From Parasphingopyxis sp. (GTDB lineage: Bacteria > Pseudomonadota > Alphaproteobacteria > Sphingomonadales > Sphingomonadaceae): a stretch of 64,000 nt of DNA. Under the pieces are notes generated by a model that saw only the letters and a program-made list of their open reading frames with translations, did no database searches and had not been told where the DNA came from. Positions 60,111-64,000 of this stretch are shown here, piece by piece (position 1 is the stretch's first letter; each line of letters begins with the position of its first letter). Both the position numbers and the translations under genes were made by a program. The stretch lies in assembly GCF_028279465.1 (NCBI RefSeq), contig NZ_JANQNS010000007.1:1-64000 (forward strand), given 5' to 3'.

Positions 60111-60872
60111 ATGCCGCGTTTAACCATGGCTGCGTTGCCTGCCGTTGTCCTTGTCATTGTCTCCGGACTGACGCTGTCGGCAGCCGCGCATGCCGCCGTG
60201 GAAGCGCCGGCCGCAGAGGTATCGCCGCTCCAGCGCCTGTTTGAGGCCGGCGGGCCGATCATCGTCATTCTCGCGATATTGGCATTGGTCGCGCTCGGTG
60301 TGGCGCTTGTTAAATTCGTCCAATTCACCCGCCTGGGTGTGGGCCGCTCCGGGTTCGTATCCGGCATCGTCGGTTCGATACAGGACAACCGCTACGACGA
60401 TGCAGTCCGCGATCTCGAACCTCGGCGCAATCCGGTGGCCCGCGTCATGGTCGCGGCAATTCGGGGCAAGACCAATGAAAGAATGAACGACACGGTCGTG
60501 CGCGAGGAAGTTGCACGTGTCGCAGAGGCGCAGCTCGACGGGCTGGAACGAGGCCTCGCCTTGCTGAGCCTGATCGCCACCATCGCGCCCCTGCTCGGTC
60601 TGCTCGGCACGGTGCTCGGCATGATCGAAGCGTTCCAGCAGATGGAAACGGTCGGCGACCGGATCGAGCCGGCGGTGCTGGCCGGCGGCATCTGGGAGGC
60701 TCTGCTGACCACAGCCGCCGGGCTCAGCGTTGCTATCCCGGCGGCGGTGTTCTTCACTTGGCTCCAGCGATCGGTCGATGTCGAGGCACAGCGCATGGAA
60801 GACGCGGCGACGCAGGTCTTCACCGCGTCGCTTTATGAAGCAGCGCCCACTGCAGAGCCGGTAATGGCCTGA
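60111..60872 (+). CDS. exbB: ExbB/TolQ-type proton channel protein
   Basis: This 253-aa protein has an N-terminal signal-like segment (MAALPAVVLVIVSGLTLSA), then the ExbB core of three helices: GGPIIVILAILALVALGVAL, LERGLALLSLIATIAPLLGL then GTVLGMIEAF, and LTTAAGLSVAIPAAVFFTWL with the conserved Thr/Ser-rich pore. It uses the proton gradient with ExbD to energise TonB. GGGAGGG sits before the ATG. Its TGA overlaps the next ATG by 1 nt. It heads a five-gene unit. Confidence 0.93.
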   Translation: MPRLTMAALPAVVLVIVSGLTLSAAAHAAVEAPAAEVSPLQRLFEAGGPIIVILAILALVALGVALVKFVQFTRLGVGRSGFVSGIVGSIQDNRYDDAVRDLEPRRNPVARVMVAAIRGKTNERMNDTVVREEVARVAEAQLDGLERGLALLSLIATIAPLLGLLGTVLGMIEAFQQMETVGDRIEPAVLAGGIWEALLTTAAGLSVAIPAAVFFTWLQRSVDVEAQRMEDAATQVFTASLYEAAPTAEPVMA

Positions 60873-61279
60873 TGCATTTCGGTCGACACCGGCGCAACAT
60901 CACGTTGCTCAATGTCACGCCGCTGATCGATGTGGTCTTCATCCTGCTCGTCTTCTTCATGCTGACAACCAATTTCGCCCGGTTCCGGTTGATCGGCGTT
61001 GAAACGCCACAGGATCGAGAGGTGGTCGAAGATCCGACCGCCGCCATCGTCATCCTGGTCAAGGCAAATGGCGATCTCGAATATGACGGCGACCCGATGA
61101 GCCGCGCGGCGATACGCGACAATGTCGAGGCCATGGTGTCGGTCGATCCGGGCCGTACCTTTCTGGTGCGGCCCGAGCTCGGCGTCACTGTTCAGGAAGC
61201 TGTCGATATCTTCCAGCTGACGCGCGATTCCGGCGCCTATTCCGTCTCCTTCGCGGGCTCCGGGGAGGACGGGGCGTGA
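60872..61279 (+). CDS. exbD: ExbD/TolR family protein, first copy
   Basis: This 135-aa protein has one TM helix with the key Asp in NVTPLIDVVFILLVFFMLTT, then a periplasmic domain (RTFLVRPELGVTVQEAVDIF). In ExbD the membrane Asp carries protons for TonB. Its ATG overlaps the exbB stop by 1 nt, and its stop overlaps the second exbD start (GTGA, 61276-61279). Two ExbD copies beside one ExbB suggest a mixed ExbD dimer. Confidence 0.92.
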   Translation: MHFGRHRRNITLLNVTPLIDVVFILLVFFMLTTNFARFRLIGVETPQDREVVEDPTAAIVILVKANGDLEYDGDPMSRAAIRDNVEAMVSVDPGRTFLVRPELGVTVQEAVDIFQLTRDSGAYSVSFAGSGEDGA

Positions 61280-61692
61280 AACTGGACCGGGAAAGGCCGA
61301 AGCGCGAGCTCATCAACATCACCCCGCTGATCGATGTGGTCTTTATTCTGCTCGTCTTCTTCATGCTGGCTGGGTCGATCGAACCCGAAGACGCCTTCCC
61401 TGTCTCGCCGGCCGCATCGGTCAGCGATATTCGCGGGGATATTCAGGACGTTGTCATCCTTGTCGACGAGGACGGCCGTGTCGCTTTGGGGGACCGCGCC
61501 ATACCGACCGGCGGCCTGGAAGCGGCTGTACGCAAGATACTGACGAACCAGCCCGACGCGCTCATTCAGGTCAAACCCGATGCCGACGCCGATGCCGTGG
61601 CGTTGATCGACATCATGGAGGATGTCCGCAGTGCAGGCGCCGAATATATCGTATTGCTGACCGTCGGTCAGCCGGAGGTAAGCGGCGTATGA
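61276..61692 (+). CDS. exbD: ExbD/TolR family protein, second copy
   Basis: This 138-aa protein also has the proton-carrying Asp, in NITPLIDVVFILLVFFMLAG, then a periplasmic domain with GDIQDVVILVDEDGRVALGD and QVKPDADADAVALIDIMEDV. It starts with GTG at 61276, 4 nt before the first ExbD stop ends. The two TM helices are nearly the same but the periplasmic parts differ, so the copies are not redundant at the TonB-contact side. The stop overlaps tonB by ATGA (61689-61692). Confidence 0.92.
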   Translation: MKLDRERPKRELINITPLIDVVFILLVFFMLAGSIEPEDAFPVSPAASVSDIRGDIQDVVILVDEDGRVALGDRAIPTGGLEAAVRKILTNQPDALIQVKPDADADAVALIDIMEDVRSAGAEYIVLLTVGQPEVSGV

Positions 61693-62417
61693 ACCGGGAG
61701 ACCAGTTGGACGAGCGCGATCGCCCCCGAACACCCGCCGATACCGAAGGACTGGCACTGGATGGCAGGCCTTGGCGTCGCCGCGCTGATACTGGTTGCGA
61801 CCGCCCTCGGTTTCGCCGAGCGCGCCATTCCCGACGCCGGCGAGGATGTCGAAGCCATGGTCGTTTCGCTGGGCGGCGGCGCGCGTACGCTGGAACCGCC
61901 GCCGCCCGGCGTCGAAACGACCGATCAGCCGAGCGTGCCCGCCGAGCGCGCCGAGGACGCGCCGCCACCCACCGCGCCGCCGCAACCACGCGCGCTGCCC
62001 AGTTTCTCGGCAAGCGACGGCCGGCCGAGTTCAGGCACAGGTGCGGGCCGTATCCCGTCACCGCCGCCTGCGGCCCGCCCGCCGCCGCCTCCGCCGCCTG
62101 CCCGGACGACACAGCTCAGTCGCAGATTCATCGACATATCGCAGCGCGCTTATATGGGTCGGATCGTCTATCCCCGCGATGCGCTCTCCCGGCAGCAGCA
62201 GGGAACCGGCATATTGCGCGTCGTCATCGATCGCAGCGGCCGGGTAGTGGAATGGCAGCTGGTCCAGTCGACCGGTCATCGCCGTCTCGACGCCGAGATC
62301 GAACGCGTCGCCCGGGAGGTTCGCCAGCTCGACCCGCTGCCGAGCGACTATGCGGGCAATCGCGCCGAAGCACGCATTCCGATTATCTTCTTCATCGAGT
62401 ATCCGGACGATGGCTGA
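61689..62417 (+). CDS. tonB: TonB energy transducer
   Basis: This 242-aa protein has a cytosolic stretch, a TM helix (MAGLGVAALILVATALGFA, about 26-44), a long Pro-rich linker with a poly-Pro block (PPPPPPPA, about 133-140), and a C-terminal TonB domain. That domain reads RIVYPRDALSRQQQGTGILR, then VVIDRSGRVVEWQLVQSTGH. It carries energy to outer-membrane receptors. Its ATG overlaps the second exbD stop, and its stop lies 8 nt inside the ABC fusion gene, so all five genes are coupled. Confidence 0.93.
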   Translation: MNRETSWTSAIAPEHPPIPKDWHWMAGLGVAALILVATALGFAERAIPDAGEDVEAMVVSLGGGARTLEPPPPGVETTDQPSVPAERAEDAPPPTAPPQPRALPSFSASDGRPSSGTGAGRIPSPPPAARPPPPPPPARTTQLSRRFIDISQRAYMGRIVYPRDALSRQQQGTGILRVVIDRSGRVVEWQLVQSTGHRRLDAEIERVAREVRQLDPLPSDYAGNRAEARIPIIFFIEYPDDG

Positions 62418-64000
62418 GCAAATGACCGACCGCGCCGTGCCGCAATCTTCGTCCGGTAGTTTGAGTTCCTCGCGCTTTGTAATGCTGGTCGGCGTAACGG
62501 CGGTGCTCTTCTTTCTGTGCCTCTTGCCGCTCGAGGCCATTCCCGAAATCCCGGTTGATATCGATAGCAAGCCCTTCTTCATTCCGCTTGTCCTCACCGC
62601 ATTGCTGCCCGCCGGGAAGCCCGGGATCGCGATCGGACTGGGCGTGGCGCTCGGTGAAGGTCTGCGCGATCTCATGGAAGGCTATGAACTCGACGATCCG
62701 ATCGGCTTCATCGGCTATGCAATCGCTTTCCCGCTGACCAGCTATGTCATTGCCGGTCGGCCGCTCAATCCTCTTCTCCTGTCATTCGGCGCCATATTTT
62801 GTGCGTTCATACAAGCGGCGTTCGAAGCGTCTTCCTTCCTGCTGTTCGGCGAGGAGAGCATCGCCATCGCGGTCCAGAGCGCGATCGGCAACACGATTAC
62901 ACACGGCATCATCTGGGGCGCGTTGCCGCTCGTCTTTCTCGTGCCTGCCTTGCACGGGCGGTTCGAGCGGTTCCTCGGCTTCGCGCCCAAAGGCCGCCAC
63001 ACAGACGCCGATCCCCTGCCGCAACCCGAAACCGGCTTCTCCGCCAGCCCTGATGCCATCGCCTGGGCAGACGGCCTGTCCTTCCGCTATCCCGGGCGCA
63101 GATCGGCTGCGCTCGACCGGCTTTCGTTCGACGTCCGGCGCGGAGAGGTTCTGGGCGTCATCGGCCGCTCGGAATCGGGCAAATCGACATTGTGCCGGGT
63201 AATGGCCGGGCTCGCGCCGAAGGCAACCGGCGGCGAAATCGCGGGGTGGCTCGAGACCCGGGGCGAGGCGGTGAAGATCGGCTTCGTGTCCGACAATCCC
63301 TCCGCCCTGATGACGCAAACCCGACCGATCCGCGAAGTCGAAGCGGCTCTTGCTCATGAAGCGACGACCGCGGAAGACGCCGAGACGAAAGCGTTGGCCG
63401 CGCTCGCCGAATTGGGGATCGGCGAGGCCGATGCCCGACGCTATGTGTGGGAATTGCCGGCGCGGGCGCAGCTGATGATCGCGCTTGCTGCGGCTACCGT
63501 CATCGAGCCGGATATACTGATCCTCGACGAGGTGGCCGCCGAACTTGATGCCGCCGGCCTCGCGCTGCTTCATTCCGTCGTCGATGCGATCCGGGACAGG
63601 GACGGCGCGGTGATCCTCGTCGACAATGATGTCGATCGCCAGTTCGCCTGGTCCGACCGCATCGCGATACTCGACGGCGGCCGCCTCGAGCGTATCGACG
63701 CGACTCACGAACTTCTGAACGACGATGAGCCACTTGCGGCCATCGGTTTTCCGCAACCGCTCGCGCTCGCTGGTAGCGCCACTCTGGACGCCGAGGACAT
63801 CCCACCATCGGCCCCGCCCGGCATTGAATGTCTGGCGATGGACGCAATCTGCTTTGCCTATGAGGACAACACGCCGATCCTTGATGGCGCGAGCCTGACC
63901 GTCCGCGCCGGCGAAATCGTGGCAGTGGCTGGCGCCAATGGCAGCGGCAAGACCAGTCTCGCCCGGCTCGCAGTGGGACTCGCCGAACCGTCGGCGGGGC
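62410..64000 (+). CDS. ECF-type importer fusion: S-component-like membrane domain with two ABC ATPase domains (cut by window end)
   Basis: The frame from ATG 62410 is open to the window end (530 codons read). Residues ~22-185 form 5-6 hydrophobic helices with short loops, S-component-like. ATPase 1 has Walker A GRSESGKST (252-260) and Walker B ILILDE (369-374), but the LSGGQ signature is replaced by ELPARAQLM and the H-loop His by Asn (LVDND). ATPase 2 begins about residue 480 with Walker A GANGSGKTS (508-516) intact; the rest is outside the window. EcfA1/A2-type domain pairs in one chain with a membrane domain are rare. Overlap with tonB is 8 nt. An EcfT-like gene would be expected just downstream. 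Confidence 0.85.
   Translation, partial: MAEQMTDRAVPQSSSGSLSSSRFVMLVGVTAVLFFLCLLPLEAIPEIPVDIDSKPFFIPLVLTALLPAGKPGIAIGLGVALGEGLRDLMEGYELDDPIGFIGYAIAFPLTSYVIAGRPLNPLLLSFGAIFCAFIQAAFEASSFLLFGEESIAIAVQSAIGNTITHGIIWGALPLVFLVPALHGRFERFLGFAPKGRHTDADPLPQPETGFSASPDAIAWADGLSFRYPGRRSAALDRLSFDVRRGEVLGVIGRSESGKSTLCRVMAGLAPKATGGEIAGWLETRGEAVKIGFVSDNPSALMTQTRPIREVEAALAHEATTAEDAETKALAALAELGIGEADARRYVWELPARAQLMIALAAATVIEPDILILDEVAAELDAAGLALLHSVVDAIRDRDGAVILVDNDVDRQFAWSDRIAILDGGRLERIDATHELLNDDEPLAAIGFPQPLALAGSATLDAEDIPPSAPPGIECLAMDAICFAYEDNTPILDGASLTVRAGEIVAVAGANGSGKTSLARLAVGLAEPSAG

Follow-up and report, generated by a model that had tools for sequence, protein, structure and literature searches.

ECF importers run on ATP and Ton motors on the proton gradient; they belong to different membranes, and accounts of one seldom include the other. 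Why, then, are genes for both joined at the end of a 64,000-nucleotide stretch of DNA from Parasphingopyxis sp. (hereafter the window)? A conserved unit of this kind would offer a natural test of whether an importer in the inner membrane can be powered or controlled by an ExbB/ExbD motor.

Layout of the cluster and its recurrence among relatives

The original prediction described five frames overlapping by 1, 4, 4 and 8 nt, and its coordinates were confirmed in the sequence (Table 1). The junctions read TGATG (exbB/exbD1, 1 nt), GTGA (exbD1/exbD2, 4 nt), ATGA (exbD2/tonB, 4 nt) and ATGGCTGA (tonB/fusion, 8 nt). It had also pointed past position 64000 as the place to look for EcfT, and the contig beyond the window indeed carries ecfT, whose start overlaps the end of the fusion gene by 4 nt (ATGA). 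With the fusion ending at 64599 and ecfT overlapping it, the cluster consists of six genes with five overlapping junctions. The six genes likely share one transcript in the genome that holds the window (G000), whereas in the two further carriers (G276 and G481) importer and Ton half are transcribed divergently.

Table 1. Positions and family matches of the cluster genes and of the domains of the fusion protein
Feature	Positions	Strand	Evidence
exbB, 253 aa, MotA/TolQ/ExbB proton channel	60111..60872	+	PF01618 (MotA_ExbB) 6.9e-32
exbD1, 135 aa	60872..61279	+	PF02472 (ExbD) 7e-22; membrane Asp in TPLIDVVF
exbD2, 138 aa, GTG start	61276..61692	+	PF02472 (ExbD) 2.4e-22; membrane Asp present
tonB, 242 aa	61689..62417	+	PF03544 (TonB_C) 3e-11
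S-A-A' fusion, 729 aa	62410..64000 in window, to contig position 64599	+	ABC_tran 7.7e-37, two ABC domains
S-component-like membrane domain, fusion residues 1-216	62410..63057	+	without family match
NBD1, fusion residues 217-455	63058..63774	+	Walker A and Walker B retained, including Glu
NBD2, fusion residues 474-700	63829..64000 in window, to contig position 64509	+	Walker A kept
ecfT, 247 aa	contig position 64596-65339, wholly beyond window	+	CbiQ, PF02361, 2.4e-14

Read by eye, TonB begins with a hydrophobic stretch, followed by a proline-rich middle and the TonB C-terminal domain. The motif TPLIDVVF, with its membrane Asp, is present in both ExbD proteins of all three carriers, as is WEALLTTAAGL in their ExbB, the membrane Glu of which we take to be a functionally important residue. 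Glu-176 of ExbB is discussed in PMC8599685.

The six-gene set was found in 3 of the 397 sampled family genomes and is thus rare. Because all six genes occur together in two genomes besides G000, the arrangement appears to go beyond chance. In both of these, unlike in G000, the Ton genes point away from those of the importer, suggesting that the linkage survived a rearrangement. The expectation that a Ton set is joined to an ECF-type importer was therefore borne out, with EcfT present and the linkage recurring, whereas gene order was not conserved. The carriers are three genomes from two genera and probably represent few independent events. A profile of the TonB protein matched 8 of 149 family genomes at 1e-10; below 1e-90 only the importer carriers G000 and G276 remained, the third-best genome of this draw scoring 7.1e-21. 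Among nine further genomes, this type of TonB was found only in G481, which bears the importer.

A scan of the genome collection by short exact peptides, which distant relatives may escape, returned 22 loci, all of them matching the ATPase part only (query residues of at least 205, 25-32% identity). Several other candidates were set aside. A second match to the S domain within the class (G923, E 0.003) was judged to be chance, as it lies on the opposite strand within an rpoB frame. Two CbiQ matches in the order (G057 and G063) adjoin molybdate-transport-like and molybdenum-storage-like genes, read by eye with no family search, and a third (G147) was under the cut-off and overlaps a frame that by eye is LysE-like.

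The S domain, the ATPase halves and EcfT

Neither Pfam nor NCBIfam had an S-component model that matched the S domain of the fusion (residues 1-216). PF06177 (QueT) did not come up for any of the three fusion S domains (matches considered to E 10) or for any of the four S proteins encoded by separate genes (to E 1); a control S protein from Natronosalvus matched it at 1.8e-15. When profiles of the S family and of two QueT-type S-components were aligned (hhalign), the probability was only 29%. As to the six-helix fold of S-components, an AF2 model made from three sequences was unusable (pLDDT 40.4), and six helical stretches were all that was seen. The S domain of G000 shared 51% identity with the S protein that Rubrobacter encodes as a separate gene and 36-37% with haloarchaeal S proteins. 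When G000 was compared with G276 and G481, S was the most conserved part of the importer, with 77-79% identity compared with 44-47% for the NBDs and 63-65% for EcfT. Across seven S sequences, 10 of the 48 invariant positions are acidic; residues 18-195 of the G000 S domain contain 14 acidic residues in all, so that 10 of these 14 are invariant (hypergeometric P 4e-4).

The best NCBIfam matches of the fusion were ECF ATPases (ECF_ATPase_1, 2e-61), at 207.8 bits against an equivalog cut-off of 315. In G000, NBD1 has the signature LPARA, D in the Q-loop and N in the H-switch, and NBD2 has LANGI and H in the Q-loop, with Walker A, Glu and His retained. The LSGGQ signature is lost in all three fusions, which read LPARA, LPAQK or LPLQK in NBD1 and LANGI, LPFGT or LPPGI in NBD2, and the Q-loop residue has changed from Q to D and from Q to H in all of them. 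Two QueT-type controls had LSGGQ, LSKGQ and the Q of the Q-loop. The Glu of NBD1 is present in the fusions and absent from the unlinked relatives. One complete ATP site was retained in all four unlinked relatives compared; the loss of key residues from the ATP engine is thus seen in the Ton-linked versions but is not shared by these relatives. Such eroded ATPases could make a weak or dead pump. Gene decay was rejected as the sole explanation, since purifying selection still seems to act on the NBDs (for G276 against G481, dN/dS is about 0.2 in the NBDs and 0.04 in S), although these values are rough because synonymous sites are near saturation.

EcfT and the surface by which S would dock to it were also compared. 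The EcfT profile matched the EcfT chains of PDB 4huq (6.8e-5) and 4hzu (9.1e-5). Ala-Arg-Gly motifs are typical of EcfT according to PMC11109136; all three carriers have one ARG (residue 203), and the place of the second motif reads RLKG in all three. In helix 1 of S, the AXXXA columns, which were placed from haloarchaeal sequences and not from a solved structure, read V/L, A and F in all the fusions, whereas three haloarchaeal relatives have A, A and A and Rubrobacter has A, G and F, so that the Rubrobacter protein also has no strict AXXXA though it is unlinked to Ton. Large hydrophobic or aromatic residues at these alanines are connected, in section 10 of PMC11109136, with inability to join the motor and with non-transport roles. 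Because it is precisely the Ton-linked proteins in which both ATP sites and the motif for docking S to EcfT have changed, docking and release driven by ATP in the style of ordinary ECF importers are probably slow or changed here. These eroded motifs of the ATPases and of docking, which set the cluster apart, were not visible to the original prediction.

Receptor, cargo and the roles open to the unit

No receptor-like frame was found among 336 frames of at least 150 aa in nine loci, and thus a TonB-dependent receptor, which the original prediction had proposed to look for past position 64000, did not appear in the neighbourhood. G000 as a whole has 35 receptor matches. We compared 32 of these with 25 of 28 in G276, 18 of 20 in G481 and 21 of 22 in the non-carrier G122, and none of the 32 was specific to carriers. 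One candidate (C16:195652-198048) was shared with both other carriers at 57-58% and at best 29% similar to a receptor of G122, and was rejected because it occurs in 93 of 394 family genomes (E 1e-100 or better); G524, of the same genus, has a receptor of this type, with no S domain or TonB of the present type found there. The idea of a dedicated two-membrane route hence held for the inner-membrane importer and its linkage to a Ton motor, and fell short for the outer-membrane part, no receptor having been found nearby and the best candidate being so widespread.

The carboxylate-rich site suggests a cation as cargo, and the haloarchaeal neighbour genes suggest phosphorus. That the S-A-A'-T unit imports phosphate or a phosphorus compound is in our view improbable. 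In Haladaptatus, and likewise on the H. limi plasmid unnamed3, ecfT is followed by a gene for 148 aa and then by PhoU; pstS, pstC, pstA and pstB lie near the homologue in H. aquaticus, and pstS on the H. limi plasmid unnamed4. The Haladaptatus homologue is near alkaline phosphatase D and a second PhoU, and arsenic operons near the homologues of H. limi and H. aquaticus fit the same cargo. However, many of the invariant S residues are acidic, which is odd for an anion site, the Rubrobacter neighbours include genes for a V-type ATPase and a Na+/H+ antiporter, and no phosphate genes were seen beside the G000 operon in frames read by eye. Matches to a Pho-box pattern came to 12/14 before the fusion gene in G481 and 11/14 in G276, but at best 10/14 in G000, which is about chance. 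Import of vitamin B12 is very improbable: in G276 a B12 riboswitch and a btuB-like receptor occur with no FecCD-type permease, but in G000 and G481 riboswitch, receptor gene and FecCD permease occur together, with btuF- and btuD-like frames by eye. The surroundings of the operon yielded no B12 riboswitch in any of the three carriers, and no riboswitch of any kind reached Rfam thresholds at the operon.

On balance we consider it somewhat probable that the cluster encodes a rare six-gene uptake system in which a divergent ECF importer has a dedicated second Ton motor. The Ton motor (ExbB, two ExbD and TonB) would be extra and distinct from another tonB-exbB locus of G000 on contig C13, whose ExbB is 26-28% identical to the importer-linked ExbB group. 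It would open a TonB-dependent receptor encoded elsewhere and let a scarce solute into the periplasm. At the inner membrane the substrate binder S, in one chain with two ATPase domains, would take the solute up in a carboxylate-rich pocket on the periplasmic side, and S and EcfT would hand it on to the cytoplasm. The data themselves show which genes are present, their linkage in three genomes, the homology with S + A-A' + T operons, the lost motifs and how conservation is distributed; transport and its direction, the joint action of the two halves, the cationic cargo and the receptor elsewhere are what we infer.

It is unlikely, though it carries some weight, that the two halves are chance neighbours, the Ton set serving generally as a second Ton system and the ECF unit importing independently of it. 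A second complete exbB-exbD-exbD-tonB set stands in G000 beside rpoB (contig C3) with no importer adjoining, an incomplete exbB-tonB copy lies about 18 kb from the cluster in G276, gene order differs between genera, and no carrier-specific receptor was found; but importer and Ton set adjoin in all three carriers across a rearrangement, and no high-scoring TonB of this type turned up in the remaining 147 genomes of the 149 or in 8 of the 9 further ones. We give little probability to a Ton motor that replaced ATP as the power source, with proton flow through ExbB/ExbD resetting or driving the importer. S would then have been fused and the Ton genes joined while the last catalytic ATP site and the docking motif decayed and S stayed almost unchanged, and TonB may or may not also act on an outer-membrane receptor. 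A similarly small probability goes to a sensor or gate, in which S binds a ligand, the ATPase pair binds ATP yet barely splits it, and the complex reports the ligand or controls the Ton motor. The loss of signature and Q-loop from both ATPase halves favours this, and V/L, A and F in the fusions against A, A and A in the haloarchaea fit the non-docking residues described in PMC11109136. Against it, EcfT is retained and conserved and would not obviously be needed by a sensor, Pfam assigned the fusion protein to no families other than those of ATPase type, and fusion of S to the ATPases may make the docking motif dispensable.

Comparison with known systems

Our preferred reading, an importer with its own Ton motor, has partial parallels. 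Occhino in 1998 (cited in PMC4496571) reportedly found the haem transport genes of Vibrio cholerae linked to tonB-exbB-exbD, so that motor genes are linked to import genes there as here. In V. cholerae haem crosses the inner membrane through a classical binding-protein-dependent ABC importer, not an ECF importer, and the receptor is known. The tonB1-exbB1-exbD1-exbD2 operon of Sphingobium SYK-6, as given in PMC8599685, likewise has two ExbD, with tonB coming first; the C13 tonB-exbB locus of G000 has an ExbB that is 27% identical to the ExbB of the present cluster. QueT-type ECF operons of Natronosalvus and Natrononativus share the order S, double ATPase, T, and their ATPases and EcfT are homologous to those described here; in the present cluster, by contrast, S is fused to the ATPases and matches no Pfam or NCBIfam S-component model, a Ton set is linked, and signature, Q-loop and AXXXA are non-canonical. 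Further counterparts are operons of Rubrobacter radiotolerans and three haloarchaea, annotated as 'hypothetical protein', 'ATP-binding cassette domain-containing protein' and EcfT. There S is a separate gene, AXXXA is kept in the three haloarchaea, and no Ton genes are annotated alongside in a gene table that is incomplete. Unfused S, A-A' and T stand in these operons in the identical order and with the same S family, a small and unnamed S-component-like family common to bacteria and haloarchaea, with a carboxylate-rich putative site.

Extent of the unit and its surroundings

Re-reading of the frames and inspection of their junctions confirmed the five overlapping frames of the original prediction. 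We read past the end of the window (C9:1-64000) on L005, a stretch of the same contig (C9:59001-79000) of the window's genome, G000 (3.3 Mb in 21 contigs). The ABC frame, which encodes a fusion (S-A-A') of an S-component-like membrane domain (S) with a double ATPase (A-A', comprising NBD1 and NBD2), ended beyond the window, and its end was overlapped by 4 nt by ecfT, a gene that had been proposed for a search downstream. Therefore, the unit consists of exbB, exbD, exbD, tonB, S-A-A' and ecfT. The TonB-dependent receptor sought in the same place was not found near the unit: in a BLASTP search against 96 receptors (E 1e-10), none of 336 frames of at least 150 aa was receptor-like (window, loci L005 and L006, and six loci around the system in G276 and G481, the two further carriers of all six genes).

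Coordinates of the features described
Feature	Genome	Locus	Contig position
Two palindromes	G000		C9:59860-59930
exbB	G000		C9:60111-60872
exbD1	G000		C9:60872-61279
exbD2	G000		C9:61276-61692
tonB	G000		C9:61689-62417
S-A-A' (729 aa)	G000		C9:62410-64599
ecfT	G000		C9:64596-65339
Tyrosine recombinase-like pieces, - strand	G000	L005:6340-6900	C9 about 65340-65900
imuA-imuB-dnaE2-like genes	G000	L005:6862-12432	
Second Ton set	G000	L072:5894-8258	C3
Partial exbB/tonB copy	G276	L070:9515-11106	C1 about 1611500-1613100
B12 riboswitch, btuB-like receptor	G276	L051	C1:2565001-2573500
CbiQ-like locus	G057	L171:7902-10748	
CbiQ-like locus	G063	L172:7727-10726	
QueT-type ECF operon	Natronosalvus	L179:2858-7946	
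QueT-type ECF operon	Natrononativus	L180:2843-7949	

Directly behind ecfT, tyrosine recombinase-like pieces (LGHSKIENTVCYLGVDIEDAL), interrupted by stops and frame changes, were noticed by eye and look like a decayed mobile-element remnant. They are followed by genes that, in our own reading, resemble the SOS mutagenesis cassette imuA-imuB-dnaE2; its first frame had no Pfam match. Two palindromes recognized by eye 5' of exbB, around TGTATTATTGCAGCAATACA and TACACTGGGTGTA, sit between exbB and an opposite-strand DUF4386 gene and are possible operators. In G276, a B12 riboswitch and btuB-like receptor occur without btuFCD frames and with a transposase-like frame close by, and no FecCD match was obtained in this genome.

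Distribution of the system and linkage of the Ton genes

The S domain had matches in two genomes out of 396 sampled from the order and in three out of 397 from the family (G000, G276 and G481), both sets being drawn from larger groups. The family sample contained nine further members of the window's genus, all lacking the domain, and the system was present in two of three genomes in the genus of G276. The class-level sample gave matches in 2 of 385 genomes, the window's own and G923, the latter rejected as a chance match. EcfT-type proteins were also scarce, occurring in 4 of 242 sampled genomes of the order including G000, three of them above the cut-off. By our own reading, a CbiQ-like membrane protein in G057 and G063 adjoins molybdate transport-like and molybdenum storage-like genes.

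Conserved gene order had been expected in relatives, but G276 and G481 carry all four Ton genes on the opposite strand, diverging from S-A-A' and ecfT; the linkage of Ton genes with the importer is conserved and the order is different. A TonB profile matched 8 of 149 family genomes at 1e-10, with scores below 1e-90 only in G000 and G276 (two copies each) and the next genome at 7.1e-21; among nine more genomes this TonB type was found only in G481, in one copy. Within these samples, the TonB type accompanies the importer carriers. The second copy in G000 is a full exbB-exbD-exbD-tonB set upstream of rpoB, without importer genes, and that in G276 is partial, with 65 bases between exbB and tonB, no exbD, and about 18 kb separating it from the full system. 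ExbB proteins of this group share 64-78% identity and are 26-28% identical to the ExbB of a tonB-exbB locus on contig C13 of G000, which resembles the SYK-6 tonB1 operon (PMC8599685) in gene order. All three Ton-linked cases may be traceable to one event.

The S family and its candidate ligand

When the fusion protein was searched against 72,556 plasmid records, seven of the matches listed covered at least 80% of it in one place. Four were operons of S, A-A' and EcfT from Rubrobacter radiotolerans, Haladaptatus halobius, Halorussus limi and H. aquaticus; the other three were weak matches (24%) with no annotated gene there. Rubrobacter S alone retrieved five records at 0.01, the fifth being a second H. 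limi plasmid with the same protein accessions for S, A-A' and EcfT as H. aquaticus. Identity to the window's proteins was 51% (Rubrobacter) and 36-37% (haloarchaea) for S, 44% and 36-38% for EcfT, and 30-32% for the ATPases. No S-component model was matched by any of the seven S sequences in Pfam (the only two hits, at 0.43 for an unrelated model and at 0.068 for another, did not reach the cut-off) or by the five scanned in NCBIfam (G000 and the four stand-alone ones), and a QueT-type control matched PF06177. In the Natronosalvus and Natrononativus records alike, adenosylhomocysteinase comes after the QueT-type ECF operon.

According to PMC11109136, an AXXXA motif attaches S to EcfT, mutation of either alanine stops ThiT, and large hydrophobic or aromatic residues at the motif accompany lost partnership with the motor. 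At the helix-1 positions all three haloarchaeal sequences carry A,A,A and the fusions V/L,A,F; Rubrobacter has A,G,F and therefore already deviates from the strict motif.

Among the seven S sequences 48 positions are invariant and 10 of these are acidic, which is 10 of the 14 acidic residues in the G000 S region (P 4e-4). With the usual topology assumed by eye, without a confident prediction (N-terminus inside, six helices), the outer half holds E42, E46, D50, D52, E83, D87, E90, E93, D95, Q135, E139, N161 and H165. We infer from the sequences that the ligand may be cationic or a metal. The haloarchaeal operons have PhoU, pst, alkaline phosphatase D and arsenic genes as neighbors, and this phosphorus neighborhood points away from such a ligand; the Rubrobacter operon adjoins V-type ATPase and Na+/H+ antiporter genes.

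ATPase sites, proposed working and comparison with known systems

A composite ATP site is built from the Walker motifs of one half and the signature of the other. NBD1 of all four unlinked relatives has degenerate motifs (E for Q, S/T for Glu, N for His), and their second composite site is kept whole (Walker A, Q, Glu and His of NBD2 with the NBD1 signature LSGGQ). That site is broken in all three Ton-linked fusions, in which the NBD1 signature reads LPARA, LPAQK or LPLQK and the NBD2 Q is H, with the NBD2 Glu replaced by K or R in G276 and G481. Against such a loss, a Walker-B Glu is present in the NBD1 domains of the fusions and absent from those of the unlinked relatives, and NBD2 of G000 retains Glu and His. 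The ATP step is probably weakened in the Ton-linked importer. The Ton motor would open a receptor encoded away from the unit, S would pick up the solute and, tethered to its own ATPases and EcfT, would pass it inward. The boldest reading left by the data, that ExbB and ExbD have taken over the drive of the importer, we regard as quite improbable.

Between G000 and G276 or G481, identity was 77-79% for S, 63-65% for EcfT and 44-47% for the NBDs. The controls btuC and btuD were 43% and 36% identical between G000 and G481, so NBD divergence by itself is not unusual in this pair; the unusual feature is the high conservation of S. Between G276 and G481, with synonymous sites near saturation, dN/dS was 0.04 for S, 0.17-0.20 for the NBDs, 0.13 for EcfT, 0.08-0.13 for the Ton genes and 0.04-0.15 for five control genes.

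Among the papers listed by searches of open-licence literature, judged by titles and the starts of abstracts, we found no description of a Ton and ECF unit of this kind, and the S family is unnamed. Ton genes linked to import genes are already known. In typical ECF transporters the module is conserved and S is variable, as stated in PMC11109136, whereas here the pattern is reversed, with S the most conserved.
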